Assembly: GCA_947446605.1 (NCBI GenBank)
Contig: CANFHJ010000006.1
Coordinates: 1-45,681, forward strand
Direction of reading: 5' to 3'
DNA length: 45,681 bases
Source: Bacteroidota bacterium
GTDB lineage: Bacteria; Bacteroidota; Bacteroidia; UKL13-3
A program made the translations under genes and the position numbers. The notes under the pieces are model-generated. The model was not told the DNA's origin. It saw nothing but the letters and a program-made list of their open reading frames with translations, and did no database searches. Each line of letters starts with the position of its first letter. Position 1 is the stretch's first letter. Of the stretch, positions 8,494 through 45,681 are shown one piece after another.

Positions 8494-8503
8494 GGTTCGA
8501 ACC
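8494..8503. repeat. GGTTCGAACC palindrome, copy 1 (intergenic)
   Basis: Exact copy in context TTTGGTTCGAACCGAT between nnr and the ferredoxin terminator. One of only two exact intergenic copies. Confidence 0.85.
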
Positions 8504-8515
8504 GATAAATAATAA

Positions 8516-8553
8516 AAGCCACTTCCTAAAAAATTGATTTTGGAAAGTGGCTT
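8516..8553 (-). terminator. Rho-independent terminator of the P450-ferredoxin operon
   Basis: Perfect 9-bp stem AAGCCACTT / AAGTGGCTT, extendable with an internal bulge (TTCC/GGAA). On the minus strand it is followed by TTATTATTT. It begins about 20 nt after the ferredoxin stop. The plus-strand side also has an A7/T7 run, so it could work weakly in both directions. Confidence 0.7.
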
Positions 8554-8572
8554 AAAAAAAGATTGGCAAAAA

Positions 8573-8812
8573 TTAAAATGCCAACTCAGGTGGAGGAAAC
8601 AATACCTCACCCGTTTGGGTATTTTCAACCTTTATAGCACATTGTGGGCATTGTTCTGCCGTTGACAATATTTCTGCTAGGTTGGCGCCATTCCTATTTA
8701 CTATTTTAGATTGACCATTGCCATCGCGTTCAAAAACAGTTGGAGAGAACATAATACACAATTGTGAGCCAACGCATTTGTTGAGATCAACACTGACTTT
8801 AATGTTTTCCAT
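8573..8812 (-). CDS. Single-cluster ferredoxin (P450 redox partner)
   Basis: 79 aa. Cysteines at 13, 19, 55 and 58 occur in CVGSQLC and CPQCA, followed by the FSPTVFERD segment typical of P450-associated [3Fe-4S]/[4Fe-4S] ferredoxins (C-x5-C...C-P). It begins 2 bp after the P450 stop on the same strand, so the two are almost certainly co-transcribed and it should pass electrons to the P450. No ferredoxin reductase is encoded nearby, so that must come from elsewhere in the genome. The extra Cys58 after the CP is not a standard ligand position. Confidence 0.88.
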   Translation of the reverse strand: MENIKVSVDLNKCVGSQLCIMFSPTVFERDGNGQSKIVNRNGANLAEILSTAEQCPQCAIKVENTQTGEVLFPPPELAF

Positions 8813-8814
8813 AA

Positions 8815-10047: not shown

Positions 10048-10125
10048 ATAGTTTGATTTACATTTAGTAGGTACAAGTTTGACAGGTTCAAAAAAATAAA
10101 AAATGATTAAAATCAAGAACTTAGC

Positions 10126-10149
10126 AAACCCTAACAGTTGTTAGGGTTT
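10126..10149. other. Inverted repeat in the divergent P450/glycosyltransferase gap
   Basis: Perfect 10-bp stem AAACCCTAAC / GTTAGGGTTT with AGTT loop. On the plus strand it is followed by a T-rich tract, but no plus-strand gene ends here, so a terminator role would need an unseen transcript. It could be a regulator site for the P450 or a repeat remnant. Confidence 0.55.
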
Positions 10150-10176
10150 TATTTTTAAAGTAGCCAACTATTTTTC

Positions 10177-10186
10177 GGTTCGAACC
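10177..10186. repeat. GGTTCGAACC palindrome, copy 2 (intergenic)
   Basis: Exact copy in context TTTTCGGTTCGAACCCAA, 27 bp from the inverted repeat at 10126-10149 and upstream of the P450 operon. Confidence 0.85.
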
Positions 10187-10287
10187 CAAAACGCTGTATA
10201 AAAATTGTATTTTGCAACAAAAAATAGCTTATCAAAAAGCAAGGGATAAATTATATTAGTCATGGTAAACACATAACAGGAGGCTAT

Positions 10288-11172: not shown

Positions 11173-11197
11173 TTGCGACAAAAATAAAAAATAATTG

Positions 11198-11205: not shown

Positions 11206-11223
11206 AGGGGTAAAGTAGCAACG

Positions 11224-11742: not shown

Positions 11743-11744
11743 AT

Positions 11745-12203: not shown

Positions 12204-13039
12204 TTGTATTTCCCAATTGCAAAATAAATTTAGGCCTGCATATTATTAGAAAGCGGGAAGATAATTACCACGATTTAGAAACGGTATTTTATCCTGTTCC
12301 ACTCTGTGATGCACTAGAGCTTAGGGATGCAGAAGCTAGTCAAACCAAACATGTAAATTTAATTTCGGAAGGCCTGCCTGTTCAAGGAGATGCTAAGGAG
12401 AATTTAGTAAGTAAGGCATATCAACTGCTTCAAAAAGATTATGCGCTACCCTATTTGCAATTTGCACTTCTTAAAAACATTCCAATGGGTGCAGGATTAG
12501 GCGGAGGTTCTAGTGATGGCGCCTTTGCACTAAACTTATTAAATGCTTATTTGGATTTAAATTTGGGCGAAGAAAAACTTCTCCATTATGCGGCACAATT
12601 GGGCAGTGATTGCGCTTTTTTTATAAACAATAAACCTTGTTTGGGCTCGGGCAGAGGAGAAATTTTAAAGCCGATTGATTTAAGTTTAAAGGGATATTGG
12701 ATTGTGATTATTAAGCCTGAAATTCACATAAGCACGGCTGAGGCATTTGCTACTATTGATGTTAACAAGCACCAAAACCAATGGGAAGAAAATTCAATAA
12801 AAAATATCATTAAATTAGACCCAAGCAATTGGAAAGACAGGCTTTGCAATGATTTTGAAGACAGCATATTTCCAAAGCATCCATTGCTAGCAACAATTAA
12901 AAATAGTTTATACCAAGCGGGTGCAATTTATGCTTCCATGAGTGGAAGTGGTTCCAGTATTTTTGGCTTGTTTCGGTTCGAACCGAGATTAAAAGAAAGC
13001 TACCGAGAATATTTTTATTTTGAGGGCTTGTTGGATTAA
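12200..13039 (+). CDS. ispE: 4-diphosphocytidyl-2-C-methyl-D-erythritol kinase
   Basis: Phosphorylates CDP-ME in the MEP pathway to isoprenoid precursors. The 279-aa GHMP kinase starts with the typical [27 protein letters not shown] and has the ATP-binding loop [17 protein letters not shown] near residue 95-110 and the C-terminal [12 protein letters not shown]. The start is fixed by homology-like residues right after the ATG, which sits in the ATGA overlap with the RES toxin. The 3' end overlaps the convergent lolD-like gene by 4 bp (TTAA shared stop). A GGTTCGAACC palindrome is embedded near the C-terminus and encodes R-F-E-P. Confidence 0.95.
12973..12986. repeat. GGTTCGAACC palindrome, copy 3 (inside ispE, 14-bp extended)
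   Basis: TCGGTTCGAACCGA, perfectly palindromic over 14 bp. It encodes R-F-E-P with CGG and CCG codons, which are GC-ending in an AT-preferring gene. Confidence 0.85.
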
Positions 13040-14012: not shown

Positions 14013-14748
14013 TTGCTTGCAATTTATTGTTTATTACTTGATAAACTTGGTCTTTTAATAATTCTATATCGTTTAAGGTCATTCCAGCGGTAGGAATTGG
14101 CTGGTGCACATATTGGTATGAAAAGCCTGGTTTGCCTTCAAAAACGCCTTGGTCTGGCAACAATTCCCAGTTTCCAATAATGGTAATAGGAAGTAAAGGA
14201 ATTTGTTTTTCGATGGCAATTCTAAAAGGGCCATCTTTAAATTTAATCATTTTAGGTACTTGGCTAGAAATTGTACCCTCTGGAAAAATTACCATGCTGT
14301 TGCCATCCTCAATCCAATTAAGTGCTTTTCTATAGGCAAGTGCTGCTTTTCTGGCATCTTTGCGTTCTACCGCAATATCTATTGTTCTGAACCAAATGCC
14401 AAAAACCGGAATTCTCTCCAATTCTGCTTTAGCCATAAAATTAAAGAAGATTGGCAATTTAGCGGCTAATGTAACTATATCTACTTGCGAGGTGTGGTTG
14501 GGAACAATCATATAAGATTGTTTTGGATCTAGCTTTACCTCATAAAAAGTTTTAACTCGTATAAAGCCAAAAAGCAAGAGCATTTTACCCCAAAACTTTC
14601 GAACCAAATGCGCAAAACGGTAGCGTTTAGGATTACTTAAGCCCAAACGAATAAGCGGATATAAAAGTAAAAACCAGAAAACAACCCAAAAGCCAAAATA
14701 AATGGCAAATGCTGCTTTTAATGGATTTTTTGAAAGTTTTATGGCCAT
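14002..14748 (-). CDS. plsC: 1-acyl-sn-glycerol-3-phosphate acyltransferase
   Basis: Acylates lysophosphatidic acid to phosphatidic acid at the inner membrane. 248 aa with an N-terminal membrane segment (AFAIYFGFWVVFWFLLLYPLI), the catalytic NHTSQVD (NHx4D) motif near residue 85 and the glycerol-phosphate-binding FPEGTIS near 155. It lies 7 bp after pyrE and overlaps gatC by 11 bp. Confidence 0.92.
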   Translation of the reverse strand: MAIKLSKNPLKAAFAIYFGFWVVFWFLLLYPLIRLGLSNPKRYRFAHLVRKFWGKMLLLFGFIRVKTFYEVKLDPKQSYMIVPNHTSQVDIVTLAAKLPIFFNFMAKAELERIPVFGIWFRTIDIAVERKDARKAALAYRKALNWIEDGNSMVIFPEGTISSQVPKMIKFKDGPFRIAIEKQIPLLPITIIGNWELLPDQGVFEGKPGFSYQYVHQPIPTAGMTLNDIELLKDQVYQVINNKLQANGY

Positions 14749-14755: not shown

Positions 14756-15397
14756 TTAATTACCCCAAATTTCCGGATTTTTTCTCCAAGCAGCTAATAC
14801 ATCTCGGTCGGAACTATTTACATATCCTTTAGCAACAGCCACTTCAATAAGTGCATCGTAATTGCACAAGGCAAAATAAGGACAATTTGCATTATTGAAA
14901 TTATTTTGAGCGGTTTCTAAGCCATAAGTAAAAATGCTTGCAAGACCAAGCACATTAGAACCAAAGCTGCGCAATGCATCTATTGCTTGTAGACTACTTT
15001 TTCCTGTAGAAACTAAATCTTCAATAACTACCACAGCTTGTTCTGGACGAATATCTCCTTCTACTTGTTTGCCCATTCCATGCTTTTTAGGTTCGGACCT
15101 AACATATCCAAAAGGCAATTCCATAGCATCAGCAACAAGTGCACCAGGAGCAATACCTGCAGTGGCAACACCAATGATTGCTTCTACTTGCGGGTAATGG
15201 ATACGAATTTGATCTGCCATTGCATTTTTTATATAACTTCTAATTGCTGGATGCGACAAAGACAAACGGTTATCGCTGTATATAGGTGATTTTAATCCAG
15301 AGGCCCATGTAAAAGGATTATTTGGTTCGAGTTTAATGGCTTTTATCTCCAATAAATATTCCGCTATCTTTGTAGCGATTGGTTCACTTATTTGCAT
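14756..15397 (-). CDS. pyrE: Orotate phosphoribosyltransferase
   Basis: Converts orotate and PRPP to OMP in pyrimidine synthesis. The 213-aa protein has the ASGLKSPIYSDNR substrate loop, the KKHGMGKQVEG flexible catalytic loop and the PRPP motif VVVIEDLVSTGKS. The start MQISEPIATKI is 8 bp from the divergent Nudix ATG, so promoters of the two genes must lie inside each other's coding sequence or the tiny gap. Confidence 0.95.
   Translation of the reverse strand: MQISEPIATKIAEYLLEIKAIKLEPNNPFTWASGLKSPIYSDNRLSLSHPAIRSYIKNAMADQIRIHYPQVEAIIGVATAGIAPGALVADAMELPFGYVRSEPKKHGMGKQVEGDIRPEQAVVVIEDLVSTGKSSLQAIDALRSFGSNVLGLASIFTYGLETAQNNFNNANCPYFALCNYDALIEVAVAKGYVNSSDRDVLAAWRKNPEIWGN
15365..15372 (+). 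promoter_or_regulatory. -7 element for the Nudix gene
   Basis: TATCTTTG, a perfect TAnnTTTG, inside the pyrE coding region and 34 nt upstream of the Nudix ATG at 15406. Confidence 0.5.
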
Positions 15398-15410: not shown

Positions 15411-16023
15411 TAAATTTTTCATAAACGATAAGCCTTTAATCCTTACAAGTTCAAACGAAAGTTTAAATGCGTTTTCGGGTTACAAACAAATTAGCCTGAG
15501 CAAAGAATTGAATCTCATGGATTTGGTTAGAAAAATGGAAGAACCACAAGAGCAAGGACTAATTTTGATTTGTGAGGATCCAGCCGAAACTTTGCAAGAA
15601 TTAATGGCTAATTTTACCAGTATACATGCGGGTGGAGGTATTGTTTTTAATCAGGATACAGAGCTATTAATGATGCGTAGACTTGGCAAATGGGATTTGC
15701 CGAAGGGAAAAATAGATCCGGGAGAAACCATTGAAGAAGGCGCTTTAAGGGAAGTTGAGGAAGAGTGTGGTTTGAACCAATTGCGTATTACTAGATTTTT
15801 TGAGAATACTTATCATACCTATAAATTGCAAGGTCATCGTTTCTTAAAAGTTACGCATTGGTATGAAATGGAAACAAGTTTTACCGGGATATTGGTGCCT
15901 CAGTTGGAGGAAAATATTACGGAGGTGTGTTGGAAAAACCTTGCCAGTATTGATCTAAACAGTTTTGATACTTATGAATCTATCAGACAATTGCTGATAG
16001 ATGTAAAAAGCAAATCAAATTAG
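15406..16023 (+). CDS. Nudix hydrolase
   Basis: 205 aa from ATG 15406. The Nudix box reads GKIDPGETIEEGALREVEEECGL, matching Gx5Ex7REUxEExGU, and lies near residue 105-125. The roughly 85-residue N-terminal part before the Nudix fold is a separate domain common in Bacteroidota proteins of this kind. Substrate (nucleoside diphosphate derivative) unknown. The ORF-track start 9 codons earlier is a TTG that would lie at the predicted transcription start, so ATG 15406 is preferred. Convergent with coaD with a 4-bp overlap (TTAG). Confidence 0.88.
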   Translation: MYKFFINDKPLILTSSNESLNAFSGYKQISLSKELNLMDLVRKMEEPQEQGLILICEDPAETLQELMANFTSIHAGGGIVFNQDTELLMMRRLGKWDLPKGKIDPGETIEEGALREVEEECGLNQLRITRFFENTYHTYKLQGHRFLKVTHWYEMETSFTGILVPQLEENITEVCWKNLASIDLNSFDTYESIRQLLIDVKSKSN

Positions 16024-16555: not shown

Positions 16556-17095
16556 TTAGGATTGAAATTTAAAAAAAGAAAAGGTGGATTGCCCATATTT
16601 TCTTTCCTCAAAAAAGTTAGGTAAATGGTTCAAGCGCAGCATAGAAGCGTGCTCAAGGATGAGCCAACCATTATGTTTTAATAATTTTTTCTCAAACACA
16701 ACACCTGGAATTTCTGTAACACGCGCCAATGCATAGGGAGCATCACCAAAAATAATATCAAAGCTTTCTTCACAATTTTTAAGAAATGCGAAGGCATCTT
16801 GCTTGCGAACTTCCATAGAATGAAACCCTAACTTGGTAGAAGTTTCCTTCATATACCTTACACAAGAAGCATCTTGATCTACACTTAGCACTGCTAATGC
16901 GCCACGACTAGAGAACTCATAACTAATATTACCTGTGCCTGCAAACAATTCCAAAACACTAAGGTCTTCAATATTAAAATTGTTATCAAGAATATTAAAC
17001 AAACTTTCTTTGGCTCGATCCGTGGTAGGACGAACAGGCAATGAGGCAGGGGCATGTAGCATAATTCCCCGTTTATTTCCACCAATTATTCGCAC
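16556..17095 (-). CDS. rsmD: 16S rRNA (guanine966-N2)-methyltransferase
   Basis: 179 aa. The N-terminus MRIIGGNKRGIMLHAP...RPTTDRAKESLFNIL is diagnostic of RsmD. The SAM loop VLELFAGTGNISYE and catalytic FGDAPYA (the D-P-P-Y/F-like motif, here DAPY) follow. The usual motif is DPPY, so the first Pro is replaced by Ala, which occurs in Bacteroidota members as far as I recall. It overlaps the DUF3822 stop by 10 bp. Confidence 0.92.
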   Translation of the reverse strand: MRIIGGNKRGIMLHAPASLPVRPTTDRAKESLFNILDNNFNIEDLSVLELFAGTGNISYEFSSRGALAVLSVDQDASCVRYMKETSTKLGFHSMEVRKQDAFAFLKNCEESFDIIFGDAPYALARVTEIPGVVFEKKLLKHNGWLILEHASMLRLNHLPNFFEERKYGQSTFSFFKFQS

Positions 17096-19052: not shown

Positions 19053-19537
19053 TATCTTATTTTATTTAGGATTGCTTCCAATTCCTTATAGGACAATACG
19101 CCCTCATGAAATTCAGAAAACCCTATACTTCCTTTAATTACGATTGTTGCAGGAATTGCACCACTCCAATTGGGGTCAACCAATTCAATCCAATCATTTG
19201 GATTTGGTTCGTCCATAAAAACCACATTTGAAGCTATATTGTTTGCACGTACAAATGGCACTAAATGTGTTTGAATATGCTTTTTAAAATCGTTGCTTAC
19301 TAAAATTATTTTAATTTTTGGATCGGAATAATTCTTAAATAGCTTAACAAAAACCGGTATTTCTTCAACGCAAGGCTTACACCAAGTAGCCCAGAAATTA
19401 ATTACATAAATGGTATCTGAAACACTCGCTTTCCAATTTGTAAGTTGGTTTGCATGAATCATAGGTATTCTTTGCGCAGAAGAATGCTGCAATAAAAAAA
19501 ACAAGTACCAAAATAAAAAGACAGCAGTTTTTTTCAT
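19052..19537 (-). CDS. TlpA-like exported thioredoxin
   Basis: 161 aa from ATG 19535-19537 (MKKTAVFLFWYLFFLLQHSSAQ, a signal peptide). The active site NFWATWCKPCVEEIP is the classic WCxPC of TlpA/ResA proteins and the cis-Pro is seen in GAIPATIVI. The ORF-track extension of 36 residues runs through the end of upp and is rejected. One base separates it from the upp stop and one base overlaps the next redoxin, so two periplasmic thiol proteins hang on a uracil-salvage gene. Confidence 0.88.
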   Translation of the reverse strand: MKKTAVFLFWYLFFLLQHSSAQRIPMIHANQLTNWKASVSDTIYVINFWATWCKPCVEEIPVFVKLFKNYSDPKIKIILVSNDFKKHIQTHLVPFVRANNIASNVVFMDEPNPNDWIELVDPNWSGAIPATIVIKGSIGFSEFHEGVLSYKELEAILNKIR

Positions 19538-20265: not shown

Positions 20266-21690
20266 ATGAAGTTAACGTTTTTAGGTGCAGCCAAACAGGT
20301 AACAGGGAGCATGTATATGCTAAGGCTCAACAATGGCTATACCATATTGGTAGATTGTGGAATGGATTATGAGGTAAAGAAGAACCCCGTTGAGCGGGCC
20401 AATTTATTTCCTTTTGAAGCTGTTGATGTTGATTTGGTTTTACTTACCCATGCCCATATTGATCACTCAGGAAATTTACCAGCATTGGTGAATCATGGAT
20501 TTAGAGGGCATATTATGTGTACGCCGGCAACCGCAGAACTAAGTGGTTATTTATTATATGACTCCGCAAATATTCAATTTCACGATTATAGAAAAAGTTT
20601 GGGTCGATCCAAAAAAGCTAGACGCGACCAAATACCAAAACCATTATTTAGCGAGAAAAATGTTAAACAGACTGTTGAACAATTTTTGACAGTTAATTAC
20701 AATGAAGATTTTCAAATAAATGAAAATATCAGCGTTAAGTTTTTGGAGGCAGGGCATTTATTAGGAGCGGCAAGTATTCTAATTACTGTAAAAGAGGATA
20801 ACAAGACAACTGCTATTGGATTCTCAGGAGATTTGGGCAGAGCCAATAGCAAGTTGGTAAAAAATGGCGAAATATTTGAACAAGCAGATTACCTTGTTAC
20901 AGAATCTACCTATGGTGGCAGAAAACACATTGCCATTGGATCTGCAGAGGAAGAATTGTTGCAGTATATTCAAAAAACTTGCATTGAATTTAGAGGTCGT
21001 TTAATTATCCCTGCATTTAGTGTTGGTAGAACCCAAGCCGTTGTTTTTACCATTAACCAATTAAAGAAAAAAGGCTTGATTCCTAATTGGCTCAAGGTTT
21101 TTGTAGATAGTCCGCTAGCCATAAAAAGCACACCTGTATATGAAAGGCATTCCTATTTATTAAATGAAGAAGCCTTGGCATTTCAAAAAGAACATGGAAG
21201 TTTATTTCATTTTGATGGCATTACCTATTTGGAGGGAATGGATGAGCATGATGAATTATTAAACTATTTTGATCCTTGCATTATCATTTCTGCTGCTGGA
21301 ATGGTTGAGGGTGGCCGTATACAAGAGCATGTGATGAATAATATAGACAACCCCTACTCTACTATTCTTATTGCAGGATTTTGCGCAGAAGGGACCTTAG
21401 GGCACCGTTTATTGCAGGGACAATCTACCATTAGAATTAAAAACACAGATAAGAACGTTTATGCGCAAATAGCAAAAACGGATGTATATAGTTCTCACCC
21501 CGATCATGAAGAGGTATTATCTTATATAAAACGAAGCGCTAACAATTCTAAAAAAGCTGGTAAACCAATTCAAAAGGTGTTTTTAGTACACGGTGAGGAG
21601 CCCCAATTACTTGCAATGAAAAATGCAGTTGAAGCAGAAGGAATTGCAAGTGTGGTGATTCCAAATATGGAGGAAGAATTTATATTATAA
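20266..21690 (+). CDS. Beta-CASP metallo-beta-lactamase-fold RNase-like hydrolase
   Basis: 474 aa of the CPSF73/Ysh1-like group. N-terminal MBL fold MKLTFLGAAKQVTGS, the zinc-binding THAHIDHSG, and GAGHLLGAA-type motif EAGHLLGAAS. The inserted beta-CASP domain has GDLGR, STYGGR and IPAFSVGRTQ. The C-terminal RMMBL-like part has AGFCAEGTLGHRL and VYSSHPDH with the last zinc His residues. Likely an RNA endo- or exonuclease in the cytoplasm. All metal ligands are present. It is followed after 1 bp by the EamA transporter. Confidence 0.9.
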   Translation: MKLTFLGAAKQVTGSMYMLRLNNGYTILVDCGMDYEVKKNPVERANLFPFEAVDVDLVLLTHAHIDHSGNLPALVNHGFRGHIMCTPATAELSGYLLYDSANIQFHDYRKSLGRSKKARRDQIPKPLFSEKNVKQTVEQFLTVNYNEDFQINENISVKFLEAGHLLGAASILITVKEDNKTTAIGFSGDLGRANSKLVKNGEIFEQADYLVTESTYGGRKHIAIGSAEEELLQYIQKTCIEFRGRLIIPAFSVGRTQAVVFTINQLKKKGLIPNWLKVFVDSPLAIKSTPVYERHSYLLNEEALAFQKEHGSLFHFDGITYLEGMDEHDELLNYFDPCIIISAAGMVEGGRIQEHVMNNIDNPYSTILIAGFCAEGTLGHRLLQGQSTIRIKNTDKNVYAQIAKTDVYSSHPDHEEVLSYIKRSANNSKKAGKPIQKVFLVHGEEPQLLAMKNAVEAEGIASVVIPNMEEEFIL

Positions 21691-22865: not shown

Positions 22866-24524
22866 ATGACAAACTCAGACCTAGCAGATATCTTAAAATT
22901 ATACGCTGATTTAAGCGAACTCCATAATGGCAATCCATTCAAAATTAAATCGTTTGCAGCTGCCTCTTTTCGCATAGATAAAATGCCCGAACCACTCTTT
23001 GGGAAATCATTGCAGGAATTGGAAGCCATGGAAGGTGTTGGCAAAAGTATCGCTCAAAAAATTCATGAAATATGCAGTACAAATTCATTTAATGAATTAA
23101 CTGAATTAATAGAAGCAACACCTGAAGGCGTAAGAGACATCATGCGTATTAAGGGAATTGGACCGAAAAAAGTAGCCATTATTTGGAAAGAAATTGGGGT
23201 TGAATCTATTGGTGAATTGCTATATGCTTGTAAAGAAAATAGACTCGCACAATTCAAAGGTTTTGGTTTAAAAACACAAGAAGCTATTATCAAACAAATT
23301 GAATTTATTTTTGTAAGCGCAAATAAATTTCATTACGCAAAAGCATACCCTATTGCCTTAAAACTTCTTAGCATTTTAGAGGAATTTGAAACAATTGAAA
23401 AAGTGGAATTAAGTGGCGAAATACGAAGAAAATTAGAAATCTTAACAGAAATAGAATTGCTCGTTTCAACAGACGACGAAGCATCTTTTAGAGAAGAATG
23501 GCTGCATTTTTTTGGGGAAGATGAAAATGAGGAACAAATAAAATTTGAAGGGTATCCCATTCAATTAACCATTGCTCATCCAGGAGAATTTGTAATGAAA
23601 CAATTTGAAAGAGGTTCTAGCATTGAACATTTTAATGCAATTATGGCTCGGTTCGAACCGAAATCTTTGGACTTTAAAAGTGAAACTGAGATTTATGAAG
23701 CTATAAGATTACCTTTTATCATTTCTGAATACAGAGAAAACAGAGGTGAAATTGAAAAAGCAATTGCAAATAAGCTCCCTAAATTTATTGAATACAGTGA
23801 TTTAAAAGGACCTCTTCACAACCATTCTACATGGAGTGATGGACTACATACCATTGAAACCATGGCCAATTATTGTATTGATAAAGGCTATGAATATTTA
23901 GGCATGGCCGACCATTCTAAAAGTGCATTTTATGCCAGTGGATTATCTGAAGAAAAAGTGATTTTACAACAAGCCGAAATAGCAAAACTCAATCAAAAAT
24001 ATGCTGGCAAATTCAAAATTTTTGCAGGCATAGAATGTGATATTTTATATGATGGTCAGATGGATTATTCAAATGAAATATTAAAAACTTTTGACTACGT
24101 AGTTGCGTCTGTGCACAGCGTTTTAAAAATGACCGAAGAAAAGGCTATGAGTAGATTGATTCGCGCCATCGAAAATCCATATACCACCATTTTAGGCCAC
24201 CCTACTGGACGATTGTTGCTAATGAGAGAAGGTTATCCAATTGACCATAAAAAAATTATTGATGCTTGTGCCGCAAACCATGTTATTATGGAATTAAATG
24301 CCAATCCTTATCGTTTAGATATGGATTGGAGGTATATTGATTATGCCTTAAACAAAGGAGTAATGATTAGTATCAATCCAGATGCACACGAGGTTGAAGG
24401 TTTCAATGATATGTTCTTTGGCGTTGCTGTAGCTAGAAAAGGTGGTCTGAATAAAGAAATGTGTTTTAATGCACAAGATGTAATTTACTTAAGCAATTAT
24501 TTTTTAAAGAAACGCGGCGTTTAA
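22866..24524 (+). CDS. polX: PolX-type DNA polymerase/PHP nuclease, polymerase site altered
   Basis: 552 aa from ATG 22866. N-terminal 8-kDa-like and helix-hairpin-helix parts (LEAMEGVGKSIAQKI, MRIKGIGPKKVAIIW), then a nucleotidyltransferase region, then a C-terminal PHP domain with metal ligands in LHNHSTWSDG, MADHSKSAF, GIECDI, SVHS, GHPTGRLL and NPDAH. The region normally reading G-D-I-D (two catalytic Asp) is TEIELLV here, so the polymerase acids are Glu. PHP nuclease (3'-5' exonuclease or AP-site) activity is the likely surviving function. A 14-bp TCGGTTCGAACCGA palindrome lies in the gene. The ORF-track TTG start 10 codons earlier is rejected. Confidence 0.88.
   Translation: MTNSDLADILKLYADLSELHNGNPFKIKSFAAASFRIDKMPEPLFGKSLQELEAMEGVGKSIAQKIHEICSTNSFNELTELIEATPEGVRDIMRIKGIGPKKVAIIWKEIGVESIGELLYACKENRLAQFKGFGLKTQEAIIKQIEFIFVSANKFHYAKAYPIALKLLSILEEFETIEKVELSGEIRRKLEILTEIELLVSTDDEASFREEWLHFFGEDENEEQIKFEGYPIQLTIAHPGEFVMKQFERGSSIEHFNAIMARFEPKSLDFKSETEIYEAIRLPFIISEYRENRGEIEKAIANKLPKFIEYSDLKGPLHNHSTWSDGLHTIETMANYCIDKGYEYLGMADHSKSAFYASGLSEEKVILQQAEIAKLNQKYAGKFKIFAGIECDILYDGQMDYSNEILKTFDYVVASVHSVLKMTEEKAMSRLIRAIENPYTTILGHPTGRLLLMREGYPIDHKKIIDACAANHVIMELNANPYRLDMDWRYIDYALNKGVMISINPDAHEVEGFNDMFFGVAVARKGGLNKEMCFNAQDVIYLSNYFLKKRGV
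23648..23661. repeat. GGTTCGAACC palindrome, copy 4 (inside polX, 14-bp extended)
   Basis: TCGGTTCGAACCGA, identical over 14 bp to the copy in ispE and in the same reading frame (R-F-E-P) in an unrelated protein. Confidence 0.85.
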
Positions 24525-29683: not shown

Positions 29684-31060
29684 TTATTTCTGAGTAAAAT
29701 ACTGAAAGAAATAAGGAATGGTTTCAATTCCTTTATAATAGTTAAACAAGCCATAATGTTCATTTGGCGAATGCAAAGCATCGCTATCGAGGCCAAATCC
29801 CATTAAAACAGATTTTAGCCCTAGCTCTTTTTCGAATAATGCTACAATTGGAATACTTCCTCCACCACGGGTTGGAATAGGCTTTTTACCATAGGTAGTT
29901 TCCATCGCTTTTTCAGCAGCCAAATAGGCATGTGAATCAATTGGCGTAACTACAGGTTCTCCTCCATGGTGCGGCTTTACAATTACCTTCACGCCTGCAG
30001 GGGCAATAGATTCAAAATGTTTTTGAAACAAATCTGTTATTGAATGGGAGTCTTGGTTCGGCACTAAACGCATACTAATTTTTGCAAAGGCTTTTGAAGG
30101 CAAAACAGTTTTTGCGCCTTCTCCAATATAACCTCCCCAAATACCATTGCAATCAAGTGTTGGACGAATACCTGTTCTTTCTAATACATTGTAACCTGCT
30201 TCGCCCCATATATCACCAATGCCTAAATCTTTTTTGTAGGCATCCAAATCAAAAGGAGCTTTATTTAATTCAGTTCGCTCGGCTGCAGATAATTCAAGCA
30301 CTTTATCGTAAAAACCAGGAATAGTAATGTGGTTATTTTCATTGTGCATACTGGCAATCATTTTTGCCAAAATATTTATAGGATTGGCAACAGCTCCGCC
30401 ATATACACCACTATGTAAGTCTCGGTTCGGACCAGTTACTTCTACTTCAACATAACTCAAACCACGCAAGCCACAATCAATGCTAGGCGTATCATTTGCA
30501 ATGATAGATGTATCAGAAATTAATACTACATCGGCTTTTAGCCTGTCTTTGTTGGCAATGCAAAAAGGACCAAGATGGGTTGAACCAACCTCTTCCTCCC
30601 CTTCTATCATGAATTTAACGTTACATGGCAAGGTATTGGTGGCCATCATCATTTCAAATGCTTTTACATGCATATAAACCTGGCCTTTATCATCACAAGA
30701 ACCACGGGCAAAAATGGCACCATCTGGATGAACTTCTGTTTTGCGAATGGTTGGTTCGAAAGGAGGTGTTTCCCATAAATCCAAAGGCACTGCAGGTTGC
30801 ACATCGTAATGACCATAAACCAAAACGGTAGGTAAATTTGGATCAATTATTTTTTCACCATAAACAATTGGATTTCCAGCGGTATGACAAAGTTCTACAT
30901 TATCGGCACCAGCCTCTATTAATTTATTTTTGATATAGGTAGCCGCTGCAATGGTATCATTGTGGTAGGCACTGTCGGCACTAATTGATGGAATGCGCAA
31001 TAATTCAAAAAGTTCATTTAAGAATTTTTCTCTGTTTTGGTTCAAGTAGGTTTGTAACAT
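29684..31060 (-). CDS. M20-family dipeptidase
   Basis: 458 aa from ATG 31058-31060 (MLQTYLNQNREKF). Two-zinc M20 metallopeptidase of the CNDP/PepV-like group: VLVYGHYDVQP (zinc His and catalytic Asp), RGSCDDKGQ (bridging Asp), MIEGEEEVGS (catalytic Glu plus zinc Glu), SDTS and, at the end, SDALHSPNEHYGL with the last zinc His. It should hydrolyse dipeptides or short peptides in the cytoplasm; no signal peptide is seen. A perfect promoter box lies 22 nt upstream. Confidence 0.92.
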   Translation of the reverse strand: MLQTYLNQNREKFLNELFELLRIPSISADSAYHNDTIAAATYIKNKLIEAGADNVELCHTAGNPIVYGEKIIDPNLPTVLVYGHYDVQPAVPLDLWETPPFEPTIRKTEVHPDGAIFARGSCDDKGQVYMHVKAFEMMMATNTLPCNVKFMIEGEEEVGSTHLGPFCIANKDRLKADVVLISDTSIIANDTPSIDCGLRGLSYVEVEVTGPNRDLHSGVYGGAVANPINILAKMIASMHNENNHITIPGFYDKVLELSAAERTELNKAPFDLDAYKKDLGIGDIWGEAGYNVLERTGIRPTLDCNGIWGGYIGEGAKTVLPSKAFAKISMRLVPNQDSHSITDLFQKHFESIAPAGVKVIVKPHHGGEPVVTPIDSHAYLAAEKAMETTYGKKPIPTRGGGSIPIVALFEKELGLKSVLMGFGLDSDALHSPNEHYGLFNYYKGIETIPYFFQYFTQK

Positions 31061-35112: not shown

Positions 35113-36054
35113 TTAATTAACTAAACCCCTGCCCAATTTATTGATTTTATTTTCGTTTTTCAACTCTATTTGAACCTTGTCTAAAACGCCATTAATAAAG
35201 CCATGACTATTAGGCGTACTGTACAATTTTGCTAATTCAAGGTATTCGTTAATGGAAACTTTCAAGGGGATATAAGGGAAATACAAAACTTCACATAATG
35301 CCATTTTCATCAAAATCATATCTACCAAGGCAATACGATCTTGGTCCCAATTTTGCGTTTTAGCAGAAATAAGTATCGTTAATTCTTTGTCGTTTTGCAC
35401 GCATTCATCAAATAATTGCTTTACAAATTTTAGGTCTTCTTCCTCATCTTTGTGCTTTTCAGGTAAAATATTAAGCGTATTTTGTTTGAGCATTTGCAAA
35501 GTTTTTTGCAAAGTAGTTAGCACCAATACTTGGTCGTCTTCCCAATTTACAAAACGATCTTCCATAAAGGATTCAAATAATTCCAAATCTGCGCTTAACC
35601 ATTCCAAAATTCCTGCTAAAAGATTCTTATCGTCTACCAAACTTGGGCTTTCAATAAGTAAATAGCTTTTTAACAAATCATGTCCTTTTAGCTCGATCCA
35701 AACCTGACGAAACAAATCGCTGTGGTTATTCCATAAAACTTTGTAATCTTTCAAGCCTTTATTAAAGGCAGAATTATTTTCAATTACAGCAACAGCCTGA
35801 TTATTGATAAGACGTTGAATTAAAGAAATTTGTTCGGAAGAGGGAATGTATTTTGCCTTTTCTGTTTCTAATTCTTGGCTCAAAAAAGCTTTAAACTCAA
35901 CACCAAAAGACAATAAGAACAGATACAATTCATAGGTTTTATCTAAACCTGACAATAGCTGTTTGCGACAAATGGCTGCATTTGCACCTTCCTCGCGGGA
36001 ATAGCTATACAATGCCTGAAATGCCTTAACGCGTAAAAATCTTCTGTTCAACAT
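35113..36054 (-). CDS. nusB: Transcription antitermination factor NusB, long form
   Basis: 313 aa from ATG 36052-36054 (MLNRRFLRVKAFQALYSYSR). Contains the NusB helical fold, with the C-terminal signature (RIALVDMILMKMALCEVLYFPYIPLKVSINEYLELAKLYSTPNSHGFINGVLD) typical. The Bacteroidota form is about twice the length of E. coli NusB (139 aa) because of an insert of about 150 residues in the middle. Acts with NusA/E/G in rRNA transcription. The start 5 codons upstream in the ORF track is less typical. Confidence 0.92.
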   Translation of the reverse strand: MLNRRFLRVKAFQALYSYSREEGANAAICRKQLLSGLDKTYELYLFLLSFGVEFKAFLSQELETEKAKYIPSSEQISLIQRLINNQAVAVIENNSAFNKGLKDYKVLWNNHSDLFRQVWIELKGHDLLKSYLLIESPSLVDDKNLLAGILEWLSADLELFESFMEDRFVNWEDDQVLVLTTLQKTLQMLKQNTLNILPEKHKDEEEDLKFVKQLFDECVQNDKELTILISAKTQNWDQDRIALVDMILMKMALCEVLYFPYIPLKVSINEYLELAKLYSTPNSHGFINGVLDKVQIELKNENKINKLGRGLVN

Positions 36055-37335: not shown

Positions 37336-39129
37336 TTGAAAGCACTAAGATACCTCAGAAAATACCTCCTTAAATACAAATTAAGGCTACTCCTTGGCTT
37401 CCTTTTTGTGGCCGCTTCGAACCTATTTGCCATTTTTCCAGCGCAAATGGTAAGAAAAGCCATTGATTTAATTAAGGAGATTTTAGCCCAATATCCTAAC
37501 AGTAAGGAACTTGACAAAATTATACTGAAAGAGACCCTTGGCACTGAGGTGCTAAAATTCTTCCTATTACTCATAGCCTTTGCCTTGGTTCGCGGCATAT
37601 TTATGTATCTCATGCGCCAAACATTAATTGTAATGAGCAGGCATATTGAATACGACCTTAAAAACGAAATATTTGAGCACTATCAGGAATTAGACCAAGG
37701 CTTCTATAGAAACAATAGAATAGGAGATTTAATGGCCAGAATAAGTGAAGATGTTGGTCGGGTAAGGATGTATGTTGGACCCGCTATTATGTATGCCATT
37801 AATTTGGTATTAACTATTATTTTGGTTTTAACAGTAATGTTTAGTGTAAATGCCCATTTAGCATTATTGGTAATTTTACCCCTTCCAATTTTATCTTTCA
37901 CCATATATAGGGTTAATAATCAAATAAATAAACGCAGTGATGCCATTCAAAAGCAATTATCTAATTTAACATCCTTTGTTCAAGAGGCATTCTCAGGAAT
38001 TAGAGTTATAAAAGCGTTTGCGGCAGAAAAGGCAAATCAAAAAAGTTTTGAGACCGAAACCAAAAACTACAGAGAAAAACAAATGCAATTGGCAAAAGTG
38101 GAGGCATATTTTTTTCCACTCATGTTATTTCTAACTGGCTTAAGCTCTTTAATAACTATATACATAGGAGGAATTGAAGTAATAGATGGCAATGCCACCT
38201 TGGGTAATATTGCCGAATTTGTTATCTACGTAAATTTATTGGTTTGGCCAGTAACTAGCCTTGGGTATACCAGTAGTTTAATTCAAAGAGCCGCCGCTTC
38301 TCAAGCCAGAATAAATGAGTTTTTAAATACCAAAACCACAATGGAATACCCAAAAACAGGTAAAACTCAATTTAAGGAAAGCATTGTTTTTGAGCATGTA
38401 ACCTACACCTATCCTGGAAAGAATATTCCTGCCTTGTCAAATTTAAATTTTGAAATTCCTAAAGGGAGCACCTTTGCCATTTTAGGAAGCACAGGTTCAG
38501 GCAAAACAACTTTAATACAATTGTTATTGCGCTTGTTCGATCCAAGCGAAGGAAAAATTAGGATCGACCAAGAAAACTTGAAATATTGCCCATTAAATAA
38601 TTGGAAAGAACAAATTGGCTATGTGCCACAAGATGTTTTTCTTTTTAGCGATACCATATCAAACAATATTTCTTTTGGCTTAAAGGAAAATGTTGAAGAT
38701 AAAAAACAAAAAGCCATAGAGGCGGCTAAAATGGCAGCCTTGTATGATAATATCATGGAATTTCCGCAGAATTTTGAAACCAAAGTTGGTGAACGTGGCA
38801 TCAGTTTATCTGGCGGGCAAAAACAAAGGGTTGCCATTGCACGTGCCTTTATTAAGGATCCTGAAATATTAATTTTTGACGATTGCCTGAGCGCTTTAGA
38901 TACCAAAACAGAGGCAGACATTCTTGCAAAATTAGCGGCCATTAAAAACAACAAAACCCTCATTGTTGTAAGTCACCGGGTTTCTTCTGTAAAAGACGCA
39001 GACCAAATTTTGGTTTTAGATGAAGGCAAAATTTTAGAGTTTGGCACACACCAAACGCTAATGGCACTAAATGGCTCATATAGTGACATATACAACAAGC
39101 AAATTCAGGAAGATCTTCAAATAAATTAG
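37336..39129 (+). CDS. ABC exporter, fused permease-ATPase (MdlA-like)
   Basis: 597 aa from TTG 37336 (KALRYLRKYLLKYKLRLLLG), the start that gives the usual N-terminus; no ATG is near and the ORF track begins 10 codons earlier. About six membrane helices, then the ATPase domain with Walker A LGSTGSGKTTLIQ, Q-loop YVPQDVFLF, signature [14 protein letters not shown] and switch His VVSHR. Walker B reads ILIFDDCLSALD: the catalytic Glu is Asp, as in the degenerate site of heterodimeric exporters such as E. coli MdlA. It may need a partner, for example the exporter at the window start, which has DE. Substrate unknown. Confidence 0.88.
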   Translation: MKALRYLRKYLLKYKLRLLLGFLFVAASNLFAIFPAQMVRKAIDLIKEILAQYPNSKELDKIILKETLGTEVLKFFLLLIAFALVRGIFMYLMRQTLIVMSRHIEYDLKNEIFEHYQELDQGFYRNNRIGDLMARISEDVGRVRMYVGPAIMYAINLVLTIILVLTVMFSVNAHLALLVILPLPILSFTIYRVNNQINKRSDAIQKQLSNLTSFVQEAFSGIRVIKAFAAEKANQKSFETETKNYREKQMQLAKVEAYFFPLMLFLTGLSSLITIYIGGIEVIDGNATLGNIAEFVIYVNLLVWPVTSLGYTSSLIQRAAASQARINEFLNTKTTMEYPKTGKTQFKESIVFEHVTYTYPGKNIPALSNLNFEIPKGSTFAILGSTGSGKTTLIQLLLRLFDPSEGKIRIDQENLKYCPLNNWKEQIGYVPQDVFLFSDTISNNISFGLKENVEDKKQKAIEAAKMAALYDNIMEFPQNFETKVGERGISLSGGQKQRVAIARAFIKDPEILIFDDCLSALDTKTEADILAKLAAIKNNKTLIVVSHRVSSVKDADQILVLDEGKILEFGTHQTLMALNGSYSDIYNKQIQEDLQIN

Positions 39130-41595: not shown

Positions 41596-42351
41596 TTAAA
41601 TTTTTCCAGTTTTCTGTGCAATGGCTAGCTTAATTCTACGCCATTTAAAAAGCAAAATATCGCGCTTGCTGTATTGCTCTTGAATACTCAGTTTTTCTTT
41701 GAAGGCATCAACTTTAAATAAGTGACTCTTGCTGGCATCGTGAACACGGTAACTGGCAATATCCCTGTTTAAAAACAAAGTGGTTTTGGTTGAGGTTAAT
41801 GACAATATCAATTCAAAATCAAAGGCATATTTATACTTGGTTTCCAATAAACGCTCTCGACGTAAATACGCAGTATTAAAGAAACAGGCAGGTTGGTAAA
41901 TATTGGGCAACATGCCGTCTTTAACCAATTCTACAAACTTAACAGGGCTGCCTTGACCTTCAATTAATAAATTGCCATCGGTATCTATGGTTTTGCATTT
42001 ACCAAAATAAATAGCAAATTCTTGGTTAACCTCGTAGGCATTAATTATTCCTTCAACAGCATTGGGTTCAAGCAAATCATCTGCATTTAAATAAGCAACC
42101 AAAACACCTTTCCCCTTTTTAAATCCAATATTAATGGCATCTGCCTGACCGCCATCTTTTTCACTTTGCCAATAGCTTAATTTAGAAGCGTATTTTTCAA
42201 TTATTTCCTTCGACCCATCGGTTGAGCCACCGTCTATAATAATATATTCTAAATTGGTATAGGTTTGGGCCAATACAGATTGTATGGTAGCCTCTAGCCA
42301 TTTGGCTTGATTGAAGGAAGGGGTAATAATAGTTACTAAAGGCGGATTCAT
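41596..42351 (-). CDS. Family 2 glycosyltransferase
   Basis: 251 aa GT-A enzyme. ITPSFNQAKWLEATIQSVLAQTYTNLEYIIIDGGSTDGS gives the nucleotide-binding Asp and GG(S)TDGS; the metal-binding D-x-D-like motif is NADD near residue 90. The C-terminus is basic (RRIKLAIAQKTGK). Likely adds a sugar to a surface polysaccharide or lipid from a nucleotide sugar. Convergent with pfkA, 6 bp apart. It is the last gene of a three-gene minus-strand run with a second GT2 and a LolE-like permease. Confidence 0.9.
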   Translation of the reverse strand: MNPPLVTIITPSFNQAKWLEATIQSVLAQTYTNLEYIIIDGGSTDGSKEIIEKYASKLSYWQSEKDGGQADAINIGFKKGKGVLVAYLNADDLLEPNAVEGIINAYEVNQEFAIYFGKCKTIDTDGNLLIEGQGSPVKFVELVKDGMLPNIYQPACFFNTAYLRRERLLETKYKYAFDFELILSLTSTKTTLFLNRDIASYRVHDASKSHLFKVDAFKEKLSIQEQYSKRDILLFKWRRIKLAIAQKTGKI

Positions 42352-42367: not shown

Positions 42368-43162
42368 CTATAATAAGCCCAAGTCGGACAACTCTTCTAA
42401 CTTTTTATATTTTGGATTTAAGCTTGGATGCCAATGGTGCAATAAACCTTTACACTTTCTCCTCAAAACCATTTGTTTGGATTTGTAACAGCGCAACCAG
42501 AATTCTTCATCCTCTCCTCCCCATTGGGTAAAATCTTCGTTGAGGGCCCCTACCCTCTCAAAAGCATCTTTAGGGCAAGCCACTAATCCTTTGCCACCCC
42601 ATAACATCCATTCCCCATTTTTGGGTGAAAAATGTGCGGGTTTATTTTTATACAAGTAAAACACAATTGGAAACCAAAAAGCCTTATTCCTTGTATTGTT
42701 GTTGCAAAGAGCCACAATGTCTCTAGGAATTGAAAAGTCGGCATCGCAGAGAAAAACCAATTCACTTGAACTTTGACGAACTGCTTTGTTAAAGGCAAAT
42801 GCGCGTGAAAACGGATATGACTCACTTTTAAAAATCACTTTGCCAGCAAAACGTAAACGAATTTCTTGCTCCAATTGCACGGCATCCTCACTGCCGCAAT
42901 CAAAAACCGACAATTCTATTAATTGGGCATTTTCACATTGGGCAATACTTGGCAGGAAATATTGCAAAAAGGTTTCACTCCTATTATAAAGTCCTACACA
43001 AATACTAATGGTTGTATGCTCAGGTTTAAATGGGTTTACGGTTCGAACCAATGCAAGCAAATCTGAAATTACCGTATAAAAGCCATACTTTCTTTGAGGC
43101 GATTTGAAAAGCCACCAAAGCGGGTATTTAATCCATTGCGGAAACATTGATTGAATGCGCAT
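42368..43162 (-). CDS. Family 2 glycosyltransferase with galactosyltransferase-like C-terminus
   Basis: 264 aa. N-terminal GT-A part ISICVGLYNRSETFLQYFLPSI, donor metal motif FLCDADFSIP (DxD), and a C-terminal WGGEDEEFWLRCYK, the GGED motif of the Glyco_transf_7C (galactosyltransferase-like) domain. Start could be Met1 or Met6 (MFPQWIKY). It begins 2 bp after the permease stop, and the second GT follows 16 bp after its own stop. Carries one GGTTCGAACC palindrome. Acceptor unknown. Confidence 0.87.
   Translation of the reverse strand: MRIQSMFPQWIKYPLWWLFKSPQRKYGFYTVISDLLALVRTVNPFKPEHTTISICVGLYNRSETFLQYFLPSIAQCENAQLIELSVFDCGSEDAVQLEQEIRLRFAGKVIFKSESYPFSRAFAFNKAVRQSSSELVFLCDADFSIPRDIVALCNNNTRNKAFWFPIVFYLYKNKPAHFSPKNGEWMLWGGKGLVACPKDAFERVGALNEDFTQWGGEDEEFWLRCYKSKQMVLRRKCKGLLHHWHPSLNPKYKKLEELSDLGLL
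43040..43049. repeat. GGTTCGAACC palindrome, copy 6 (inside a GT2 gene)
   Basis: Exact copy in context TTACGGTTCGAACCAATG; on the coding strand it reads V-R-T, a different frame from ispE/polX. Confidence 0.85.
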
Positions 43163-43164
43163 CC

Positions 43165-44409
43165 TTAATTAAACTGAATACTTTTGATAGGGTTTACCTT
43201 GCTTACCATTTTAACTGGAATAAGCAGCAAAAATCCACAAATAAAAAAAGCAAAAACATTAATGTAGACAATGTCCATGGTATTTATTTCAATGGGCACA
43301 TGGTTGATGTAGTAGGATTTTTGGTCTAATTTTATCCATGAAAACTGCTTCTGTAAATAGGCTAAACCCAGTCCCAGCAAGTTTCCCAATAACAAACCTT
43401 GAAAAATTATTTTTACGCCCATCCATAAAAATATTTCACTCAATTGTTTGTCTTCAGCTCCCAGTGCTTTCATTAATCCAATCATTTGAGTTCTTTCCAA
43501 TATAAGAATAAGTAAAGCGGTTACCATATTAATTGAAGCAACAGCCACCATTAAAATCATTATAATTAGCACATTCAAATCCAATAAACTCAACCAATCA
43601 AATAAGGCAGGGTACATTTCGTAGATACTGCTCAATCCCATATTATAGGGTGTTATTTGTGCAATTTCTTCGCGCATATTTTCGGTTTCGGTTCGATCCA
43701 AATTCTTTAAGCCAATTTCATAACCGCTAATAGCTGTTTGATCCCAATTGTTTAATTTTTGCACCTGACGGATATCCACAAAGGCATACAATTCGTCTAA
43801 TTCACCCATGCCCGTATCAAAAATGCCCGCAATTTTTAATTTCCTAACCCTTGGTGGATCTTGAATAAAATAGATATAAACAGGGTCGCCTAGTTTTAAT
43901 TCGAGGCGTTTGGCTGTAATGGCCGACAGTAAAATTTCTTGCGAGCTGCTTGAATCTGCAAAGTTGGGCCATTTGCCTTCCAATAAATTCTTTTGTAAAA
44001 AAATAGCGTTAAAATCAGTTCCTATTCCTTTCAACACAATTCCTTCAAATGCATTTTCTGTCTTTATAATACCTGCCTTGGTTGCATAAGCTTGCATAAA
44101 AACTACCCCTTCCTTCTTACGTGCAAGCGCTTCCATAATGGTATCGCGCGAAATGGGCAAGCTTTCAAAACTGTTGTTTAAATCGAGGTGGGTAATTTGC
44201 AGAGGTGCATTAAAACCAATAAGTTTGTCCTTCACTTCATTTTGGTATCCCTTCACAATGGCAGTGGCCAAAATCATTACCATTACACTAACGCATGCAG
44301 CTGCCAAAGCAAGGTTGATAATCAACTTTGAAAATCCGCTTCCCTTTTTATTACTTTGAAGCGGCTTATGGGCCATTAACCTTTTTGCAATGAAAAAACT
44401 AAACTTCAT
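43165..44409 (-). CDS. LolE/FtsX-family ABC permease
   Basis: 414 aa from ATG 44407-44409 (MKFSFFIAKRLMAHKPL). One N-terminal helix (LIINLALAAACVSVMVMILATAIV), a periplasmic MacB-PCD-like domain (about 50-270), then three helices in an FtsX domain (LNVLIIMILMVAVASINMVTALLILILERTQMIGLMKALGA). This is the layout of lipoprotein-releasing permeases. The ATPase partner is not adjacent; the LolD-like protein at 13.0-13.7 kb is a candidate. Its 5' end overlaps that of the divergent namZ gene by 20 bp. Confidence 0.88.
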   Translation of the reverse strand: MKFSFFIAKRLMAHKPLQSNKKGSGFSKLIINLALAAACVSVMVMILATAIVKGYQNEVKDKLIGFNAPLQITHLDLNNSFESLPISRDTIMEALARKKEGVVFMQAYATKAGIIKTENAFEGIVLKGIGTDFNAIFLQKNLLEGKWPNFADSSSSQEILLSAITAKRLELKLGDPVYIYFIQDPPRVRKLKIAGIFDTGMGELDELYAFVDIRQVQKLNNWDQTAISGYEIGLKNLDRTETENMREEIAQITPYNMGLSSIYEMYPALFDWLSLLDLNVLIIMILMVAVASINMVTALLILILERTQMIGLMKALGAEDKQLSEIFLWMGVKIIFQGLLLGNLLGLGLAYLQKQFSWIKLDQKSYYINHVPIEINTMDIVYINVFAFFICGFLLLIPVKMVSKVNPIKSIQFN

Positions 44410-45595
44410 AATTCTCCACAAATATAATCACTGTATCTGGCTTTTGTGCTTTTTCCTACTTGGAAACAATTTGATGGCCCAAATACCAGGTGCCGATCAG
44501 CCAGAAAAATACTTGAGCTTGCTTAAGGACAAAAAAGTTGGATTGGTGGTAAACCAAACTGCCACAGTTGGACAAATGCATTTGGTAGATTTCTTGCTTA
44601 AAAAGAAAATTAAAGTAGTTTGCATTTTTGCGCCAGAACACGGGTTTAGGGGCGATCATAGCGCAGGAGAAAAGGTATCCTCAGGCATTGATGCCAAAAC
44701 AAAACTTCCAGTTTATTCCTTATACGGGGCTTATAAAAAACCTAATGAGGCACAACTTAAAAAACTCGATATTGTAATTTTCGATATACAAGATGTGGGT
44801 GCTAGGTTTTATACTTATATATCTACTTTACATTATGTAATGGAAGCTTGTGCAGAGCAGAAAAAACCATTGCTTATTTTGGATCGCCCCAACCCCAATG
44901 GTGCTTATATAGATGGACCAATATTAGATACGGCATTTAGGTCGTTTGTAGGCATGCATCCAGTTCCTGTGGTTCATGGCTGTACAATGGCAGAATACGC
45001 CAAAATGATTAATGGTGAGGGTTGGTTAAAAAACCACCTAAAATGTAATTTAATGTTTGTGCCATTGAAAAACTACACCCATCAAACGCCTTATAATTTA
45101 CCTATACCCCCATCTCCAAATTTACCTACAATGGGAAGCATTTATTTATATCCAAGTTTATGCTTTTTTGAAGGTACACCCTATAGTGTAGGAAGAGGAA
45201 CCAATAAGCCTTTTGAAAGAGTAGGCAAACCATTTTGCAAAATTGGATCAGACACTTTTACACCTGTTAATATGCCGGGAATTGCAGAACATCCGCCCTT
45301 TGAGGGAAAATTATGTACTGGTTTTTTATTGACAGATTATGCCAAAAACTTGGCGCCATTTGAACAGAAAATTAACCTTTATTGGTTAATAGAATTGTAT
45401 AAAAACGACGACAATCAAACGGCTTTCTTTAATTCCTTTTTCGATAAATTAGCTGGAACCGATATACTCCGCAAGCAAATTATGGCAGGCAAAACGGAGG
45501 AAGAGATAAGAAAGAGCTGGCAAGCAGGCTTAATCAAATACCGCAATATGCGCAGGCCTTACCTGCTTTATTCAGATTTAGAAAGGGGTAACTAA
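44390..45595 (+). CDS. namZ: Exo-beta-N-acetylmuramidase NamZ (DUF1343)
   Basis: 401 aa, DUF1343/GH171. Signal peptide in the first 31 residues (HCIWLLCFFLLGNNLMAQ). Diagnostic motifs are KVGLVVNQTA, FAPEHGFRGDHSAGE, IFDIQDVGARFYTYISTL, RPNPNG, PYSVGRGT and GFLL. Members release terminal MurNAc from peptidoglycan fragments, which would fit the dipeptide epimerase in this window as part of murein recycling. Start overlaps the LolE-like gene by 20 bp; its 3' end overlaps the kdsB-like gene by 4 bp. The ATG is supported by the signal peptide. Confidence 0.9.
   Translation: MKKLNFIILHKYNHCIWLLCFFLLGNNLMAQIPGADQPEKYLSLLKDKKVGLVVNQTATVGQMHLVDFLLKKKIKVVCIFAPEHGFRGDHSAGEKVSSGIDAKTKLPVYSLYGAYKKPNEAQLKKLDIVIFDIQDVGARFYTYISTLHYVMEACAEQKKPLLILDRPNPNGAYIDGPILDTAFRSFVGMHPVPVVHGCTMAEYAKMINGEGWLKNHLKCNLMFVPLKNYTHQTPYNLPIPPSPNLPTMGSIYLYPSLCFFEGTPYSVGRGTNKPFERVGKPFCKIGSDTFTPVNMPGIAEHPPFEGKLCTGFLLTDYAKNLAPFEQKINLYWLIELYKNDDNQTAFFNSFFDKLAGTDILRKQIMAGKTEEEIRKSWQAGLIKYRNMRRPYLLYSDLERGN
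44419..44426 (-). promoter_or_regulatory. -7 element of the LolE-like gene, inside namZ
   Basis: Minus-strand TATATTTG, perfect TAnnTTTG and identical to the box of the first ABC exporter, 10 nt before the ATG and within the namZ signal-peptide codons. Confidence 0.5.
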
Positions 45596-45681
45596 TTAAT
45601 TTTACCACCCATTAATTGGGTAACTTTTGCCACATCTTCTGGGGTATCTATGCAATGGCTGTCAAAATTGGTTCGAACCAA
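45592..45681 (-). CDS. kdsB: C-terminal fragment, probable 3-deoxy-manno-octulosonate cytidylyltransferase
   Basis: Thirty codons at the window edge, absent from the ORF track: the frame reads VRTNFDSHCIDTPEDVAKV and ends at TAG (plus-strand 45592-45594). S-H-(C/S)-I-D-T-P-E-D is the usual C-terminus of KdsB, which activates Kdo for lipopolysaccharide. A related nucleotidyltransferase is possible because only the tail is visible. It shares the 4-bp CTAA with the convergent namZ stop and contains a GGTTCGAACC palindrome. Confidence 0.6.
   Translation of the reverse strand: MVRTNFDSHCIDTPEDVAKVTQLMGGKIN
45668..45681. repeat. GGTTCGAACC palindrome, copy 7 (window end, 14-bp extended)
   Basis: TTGGTTCGAACCAA, perfectly palindromic over 14 bp, inside the probable kdsB coding tail, in yet another reading frame context (L-V-R-T-N). 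Confidence 0.85.

Follow-up and report, generated by a model that had tools for sequence, protein, structure and literature searches.

Why should one 10-bp palindrome, GGTTCGAACC, occur seven times within 45,681 nucleotides of a Bacteroidota genome, both inside genes and between them, and what kind of protein reads it? The stretch in question (contig CANFHJ010000006.1, positions 1 to 45,681; hereafter the window) was studied together with its own genome and related ones. The palindrome turns out to belong to a longer and looser word of 16 bp, TTYGGTTYGAACCRAA, of which the exact 10-mer is the peak. The elementary unit is shown to be an oriented half-site, YGAACCNA, which most species of the genus pair head to head with its mirror copy. 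Its three forms are species dialects, running from a half-word to a perfect palindrome. A full-text literature search gave no paper describing the word as a repeated bacterial motif.

The window's own genome (G000) comprises 2.48 Mb and is 84.5% complete. For comparison, 19 genomes were taken from the genus and 18 from elsewhere in the family, most of them metagenome assemblies, as the genus members examined all seem to be; exact-word counts refer to whole genomes, and motif statistics in other species to about 40-280 kb each.

Results

The exact palindrome and the longer word

Seven exact copies of GGTTCGAACC are present where a first-pass annotation of the window had placed them, against 0.01 in dinucleotide shuffles of the window. 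In the whole of G000 the word is found 272 times and the same word reversed, which served as control, 6 times. Within 1.18 Mb of this genome 126 copies were seen where an order-3 Markov model expects 0.39, and the runner-up 10-bp palindromes have 5-6 copies each, none coming near GGTTCGAACC. The genome count that the annotation had proposed as a check thus makes the word an extreme outlier, far from the Markov expectation. The flank preference it had described, TYGG..CCRA, also holds, the next base being R in 145 of 166 half-sites and the following one A in 144 of 166. Three of the window copies are intergenic (8494, 10177 and 45670), where two had been counted, and the four genic ones occupy three reading frames; a protein-coding origin, already dismissed in the annotation from the use of several frames and gaps, is rejected in view of the three frames and the intergenic copies. 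GGTTCGAACC is also a tRNA T-arm sequence. The window has no tRNA gene, so its copies are not T-arms, and the copy number is far too high for such an origin.

Expectation-maximisation (EM) on G000 gave a symmetric word of 16-18 bp, TTYGGTTCGAACCRAA, whose density came to about 575-680 sites per Mb according to the motif width and the data used (a sequence carrying the word being TTTGGTTCGAACCAAA). In G005, G013 and G004, EM gave 622-936 per Mb. Sites of TTYGGTTYGAACCRAA are spaced at one per approximately 1-1.7 kb, and the motif-rich genomes of the genus are each estimated to hold well over a thousand copies. Scoring against reversed sequence showed a clear excess in G000, G012, G016, G003, G004 and G005, whereas other genera had none.

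A word of this kind could accumulate through DNA methylation, if a methyltransferase recognised an internal sequence and repair or selection built up the word; a methylase or nuclease site with TTCGAA as core had been among the first proposals. The palindrome, its density and its alternates resemble highly iterated palindrome 1 (HIP1) and the alternate HIPs, which track methyltransferases (PMC4390886), and G000 and G012 have one PF02384 gene each. However, the word lacks a sharply bounded core: any of the three other bases occurs often at position 3 and is well tolerated, and the flanks contribute across 16 bp in a graded manner, with T/A-rich edges. TTCGAA by itself shows no enrichment beyond the word, 7 of its 17 occurrences in the window lying within it. 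Moreover, PF00145, PF01555 and PF02086 were not found in G000, and G009 and G014 gave no match over the cut-off in PF01555, PF00145, PF02384 or PF02086, rarer methyltransferase families not having been searched. As these two genomes nevertheless carry the word, the methylation explanation is weakened and is considered unlikely.

Distribution in the genus and dialects

Exact CG-centred copies number 6-300 across the 19 genomes of the genus versus 0-4 across the 18 other genomes of the family, and the TG-centred form GGTTTGAACC, with both strands summed, 46-1318 versus 3-22. Since the TG-centred counts are above the family level throughout the genus, the word is carried by all 19 of its genomes. 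It is absent from the 18 other family genomes, and outside the genus, as in UKL13-3 (CP012155.1), no clear excess was present in the stretch examined. Dominance of the CG centre is limited to the window's species and its two sisters, G012 and G016. The remaining genomes extend from near balance in G002 and G003 to nearly exclusive TG/CA in G005, G008, G010 and G013; in G013 and G005, EM gave a centre of 91-92% CA/TG, 6% CG and 2-3% TA. G015, G017 and G018 have few exact CG copies, yet their TG/CA form exceeds the control. The evidence for G003 consists mainly of counts, EM having found the word there under the symmetric constraint only and not in the free or strand-aware setting.

When the TG-centred sites are co-oriented, the GAACC half is about 90-100% conserved at key positions, with 93-100% at most of them, and its mirror partner is weaker, an asymmetry that is significant in each of four genomes (p<1e-8). 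The half-site TGAACCNA exceeds the order-3 model 2.7-fold in G015 (148 vs 55) and 3.7-fold in G018 (56 vs 15), and the mirror half is hardly above controls in both, so that these two species, as tested, have the half-site only; family and outgroup sequence showed no excess of TGAACCNA. In a tree of PolX the strong carriers cluster together, with G015 (L022) as their sister in that sampling. The simplest series that we infer leads from the oriented half-site to the TG-centred dyad and then to the CG palindrome, its direction resting on the place of G015 in this one gene tree.

An oriented core half-site in high copy number would also suit a polar recombination or segregation signal, like Chi or the FtsK orienting polar sequences (KOPS), which was later paired. 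The dyad form found in most species abolishes polarity, however, and the oriented sites favoured neither strand in each of the seven contiguous stretches examined, of 80-180 kb (p 0.27-0.90), which makes such a signal very improbable.

Placement and evolution of the sites

Out of 388 scored sites, 316 (81%) are coding, compared with a coding share of 84.8% in the DNA; the three frames all occur, in unequal proportions, and these sites have no preference for gene starts or gene ends. The HIP-like iteration at the DNA level, as first described, is thus genome-wide, genic and intergenic, and in all frames. A palindrome could fold in RNA, and the word might accordingly be a transcribed element (an RNA hairpin or a terminator), or else the operator of a global regulator, as had also been suggested. 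Both are scarcely credible given the coding share and the indifference to gene ends; moreover, the halves of the sites vary independently in G000, with no covariation, and promoters, where a cluster of sites might betray a binder that regulates its own gene, gave weak triplets only, with no common gene.

Gaps between sites are exponential, i.e. of Poisson scatter. Over 36 bins of 20 kb the sites are slightly under-dispersed (variance/mean 0.62, p=0.04), and none of the bins has a regional excess.

The cores of the sites are more conserved than their flanks, with 97.7% versus 86.5% identity between G000 and G012 (87% overall; p=5e-10) and 88.8% versus 81.5% between G000 and G016 (p=3e-4). Where a site is absent from the orthologous place in a sister, the difference is due to substitutions, with small indels only at site edges and no clean insertions; an inserted mobile repeat (repetitive extragenic palindrome or miniature inverted-repeat transposable element) is rejected, as sister-species sites differ through substitution. 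Between genomes of about 74% identity the majority of sites have ceased to be shared, hence the set of sites turns over and the word itself persists. Conservation of position, proposed earlier as a check, is seen in the sisters, which keep sites beyond their flanks, and is mostly lost at the greater distance. At sites held by a single species the core diverges slightly more in an amino-acid cost test; this result is biased by conditioning on absence and was not used.

Contig C18 of the same genome has a word-free stretch of 15 kb at 8345-23504 (L151 from 8345, continuing into L329), with a GC content of 0.31 as compared to about 0.38-0.39 in its flanks. This island carries ATP-grasp/SPASM-like peptide genes and an IS30-like transposase fragment, all named by eye, and looks like recently acquired DNA. 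Proxies of horizontal gene transfer (GC content, codon usage) gave no clear trend. In viral contigs, matches to TTGGTTCGAACCAA are mostly one per contig, which by our own estimate is about chance for a collection of that size; it also recurs at shared spacings of 81, 162 and 477 bp in L246, L262 and L268, an apparent internal repeat array that is probably unrelated to the host word.

Sites in the window

The exact copies of the window, to which no strand is assigned, are as follows.

8491..8506, exact copy TTTGGTTCGAACCGAT, intergenic; core identical in sister G016
10174..10189, exact copy TTCGGTTCGAACCCAA, intergenic; absent from the aligned place in G016
12972..12987, exact copy TTCGGTTCGAACCGAG, in a GHMP kinase gene (IspE-like); kept in G012 and G016
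23647..23662, exact copy CTCGGTTCGAACCGAA, in a PolX-like gene (HHH and PHP); exact in G012, one-off in G016
25345..25360, exact copy TTTGGTTCGAACCTCT, in a Peptidase_C25 (PorU-like) gene; kept in G012 and G016
43037..43052, exact copy TACGGTTCGAACCAAT, in a glycosyltransferase gene; kept in G012 and G016
45667..45681, exact copy at the contig end, intergenic

The Peptidase_C25 protein (window 24533-29560, minus strand) has 1675 amino acids and is PorU-like, i.e. of type IX secretion. At window 11281-12203 (plus strand) an Xre/MbcA/ParS-type antitoxin gene is followed by a gene for 152 amino acids, a possible toxin-antitoxin pair.

Window sites scoring above 12 number 26, plus the copy at the window end, and about 20 of these are degenerate. 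They are given below, again with no strand.

1344..1359, degenerate site GATGGTTTGAACCGAA, TG centre; score 15.5
8052..8067, degenerate site; score 13.5
8315..8330, degenerate site CTTGGTTCGGGCAAAA; kept in G016
12641..12656, degenerate site; score 12.2
14381..14396, degenerate site ATTGTTCTGAACCAAA; kept in G012 and G016
15087..15102, degenerate site TTAGGTTCGGACCTAA; G012 and G016 identical
15766..15781, degenerate site TGTGGTTTGAACCAAT, TG centre; scored and aligned to sisters
17009..17024, degenerate site; score 14.3
19203..19218, degenerate site; score 13.0
20598..20613, degenerate site TTTGGGTCGATCCAAA; present in G012, lost in G016 through substitutions only
26819..26834, degenerate site; scored and aligned to sisters
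28453..28468, degenerate site; scored and aligned to sisters
30052..30067, degenerate site; G012 and G016 identical
30421..30436, degenerate site CTCGGTTCGGACCAGT; scored and aligned to sisters
30574..30589, degenerate site; G012 and G016 identical
35687..35702, degenerate site; score 12.7
38531..38546, degenerate site, weakest in the list; score 12.0
42259..42274, degenerate site; scored and aligned to sisters
43687..43702, one-off site TTCGGTTCGATCCAAA; core identical in G012 and G016
44878..44893, degenerate site; stronger form in sisters

Seven pairs of scored sites in G000 overlap with a 5-bp shift, as if half-sites were chained onto the palindrome.

Discussion

The occurrence of sites in genes and gaps, their graded degeneracy and their independently varying halves lead to a protein that reads double-stranded DNA, and it is very probable that the word is read in this manner by a sequence-specific protein. 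Several candidates were examined. A LacI-type operator, prompted by the central CG, was rejected as the LacI family is absent from G000, G012, G004 and others. A ParB paralogue was rejected as well, with at most one HTH_ParB per genome of the genus and a canonical parS-like site in L126.

It is quite possible that the word is bound inside the cell by a dimeric protein of nucleoid type, which would organise, repair or mark the chromosome, the sites being selected for coverage. The symmetric 16-18 bp word with its graded flanks and T/A-rich edges, the independent variation of the half-sites in G000 (as dimer binding would give), the even coverage of the genome and the conservation of cores above flanks all favour such a protein. 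On the other hand, ParB and the LacI family are excluded, none of the 36 bins shows a regional excess, a half-site standing by itself, as in G015 and G018, would be unusual for an obligate dimer, and weak selection would be required at more than a thousand sites. The first-pass annotation had named a nucleoid or a segregation protein; clustering and strand polarity are missing and the single ParB has its canonical parS, which speaks against segregation.

The reading which we tentatively place first, from its likeness to the DNA uptake sequences (DUS) of Neisseria, is that the word may be a DNA uptake or self-recognition signal. The reader would then be an uptake receptor that recognises self-DNA in natural transformation. 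DNA bearing the word would be preferentially taken up and then recombined back into the genome, so that copies would pile up wherever tolerable through molecular drive plus mutation, and the dialects would track the drift of the receptor. In favour of this reading are the occurrence throughout genome and genus with absence from the 18 other family genomes, the densities and dialects resembling those of DUS, the Poisson scatter over all frames with a nearly proportional coding share, the formation of sites by substitution and their conservation, the asymmetry of the halves, and the word-free AT-rich island with its transposase fragment. Accumulation of uptake marks through biased uptake, recombination and mutation has been described (PMC1939737; PMC3630211). 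Neisseria has about 1900 DUS copies in 2.2-2.3 Mb (PMC3630211). In Simonsiella muelleri, 1294 DUS are arranged as overlapping dyad pairs that do not obviously favour a frame or coding DNA, an arrangement in which the authors saw a sign of dimeric recognition (PMC3630211). The putative receptor may belong to a pilus-free Bacteroidota uptake machine resembling that of Riemerella: R. anatipestifer transforms without pili and requires ComEC, DprA, ComF and RecA together with four proteins of unknown function, including DUF1343 (PMC8459023). R. columbina prefers its own DNA, and no convincing word was found there (PMC7965970). ComEC is present in 27 of 27 genomes tested.

A NamZ/DUF1343 gene is located at window 44474-45595 (plus strand). 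DUF1343 is essential for transformation in R. anatipestifer (PMC8459023); the family is widespread and the gene is a lead only.

Several points weigh against an uptake signal. ComEC is also found in relatives without the word and hence does not discriminate. No full PF00437 match (type IV pilus/type II secretion ATPase) was obtained in the 19 genomes of the genus, only short partial ones, which excludes the known type of DUS receptor, ComP on the pilus. A rough sequence pattern for homologues of the Riemerella surface protein/barrel pair gave nothing convincing in half of the genome. The searches yielded no reader protein, and a near-palindrome fits an ordinary dimeric DNA-binding protein as well. 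The single site-free island of C18 is only moderately improbable by chance, given its many possible placements. Uptake signal and nucleoid site are hence not sharply separated: the oriented half-site and the dialect series lean towards uptake, and the symmetric word leans towards a dimeric binder.

Only a few iterated genomic words have a function that is known or suspected, namely DUS, the uptake signal sequence (USS), HIP1, Chi and KOPS. The present word is confined to one Bacteroidota genus with word-free close relatives, and the sisters apparently show three stages of its construction, so that the origin and change of such words can be studied. Should it prove to be an uptake mark, no earlier one would be on record from this phylum, whose transformation machinery is pilus-free, and the word would serve as bait for the receptor. 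We may, with reserve, be dealing with a new pilus-independent DNA self-recognition system of Bacteroidota, in which one genus shows the half-site, the TG dyad and the CG palindrome, with more than a thousand sites re-written between stages.

Comparison with known systems

The sites of ParB/Noc and MatP are 13-16 bp palindromes bound by dimers. They number a few to tens and are regionally biased, whereas the genus word has more than a thousand even sites beside one ordinary ParB. The USS of Pasteurellaceae has a density similar to that of the genus word and a conserved core with AT-rich flanks; unlike the genus word, it is non-palindromic and tied to type IV pilus uptake. Its accumulation has been attributed to uptake bias (PMC1939737). 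HIP1 and the alternate HIPs of cyanobacteria are likewise palindromic, occur about once per kb across genes and are replaced by a variant in some relatives (PMC4390886). They differ in tracking methyltransferases and in their short GC-rich core, the genus word being 16 bp long, rooted in an oriented half-site and with no common methyltransferase found in the four families searched. The DUS of Neisseriaceae has more than 1000 copies per genome, both genic and intergenic, in taxon-limited single-base dialects, and in Simonsiella and Kingella it forms overlapping dyad-symmetric pairs (PMC3630211), all of which is matched by the genus word. The two differ in sequence and phylum, and the genus lacks a type IV pilus ATPase; further, in most of its species the dyad form is the dominant one.

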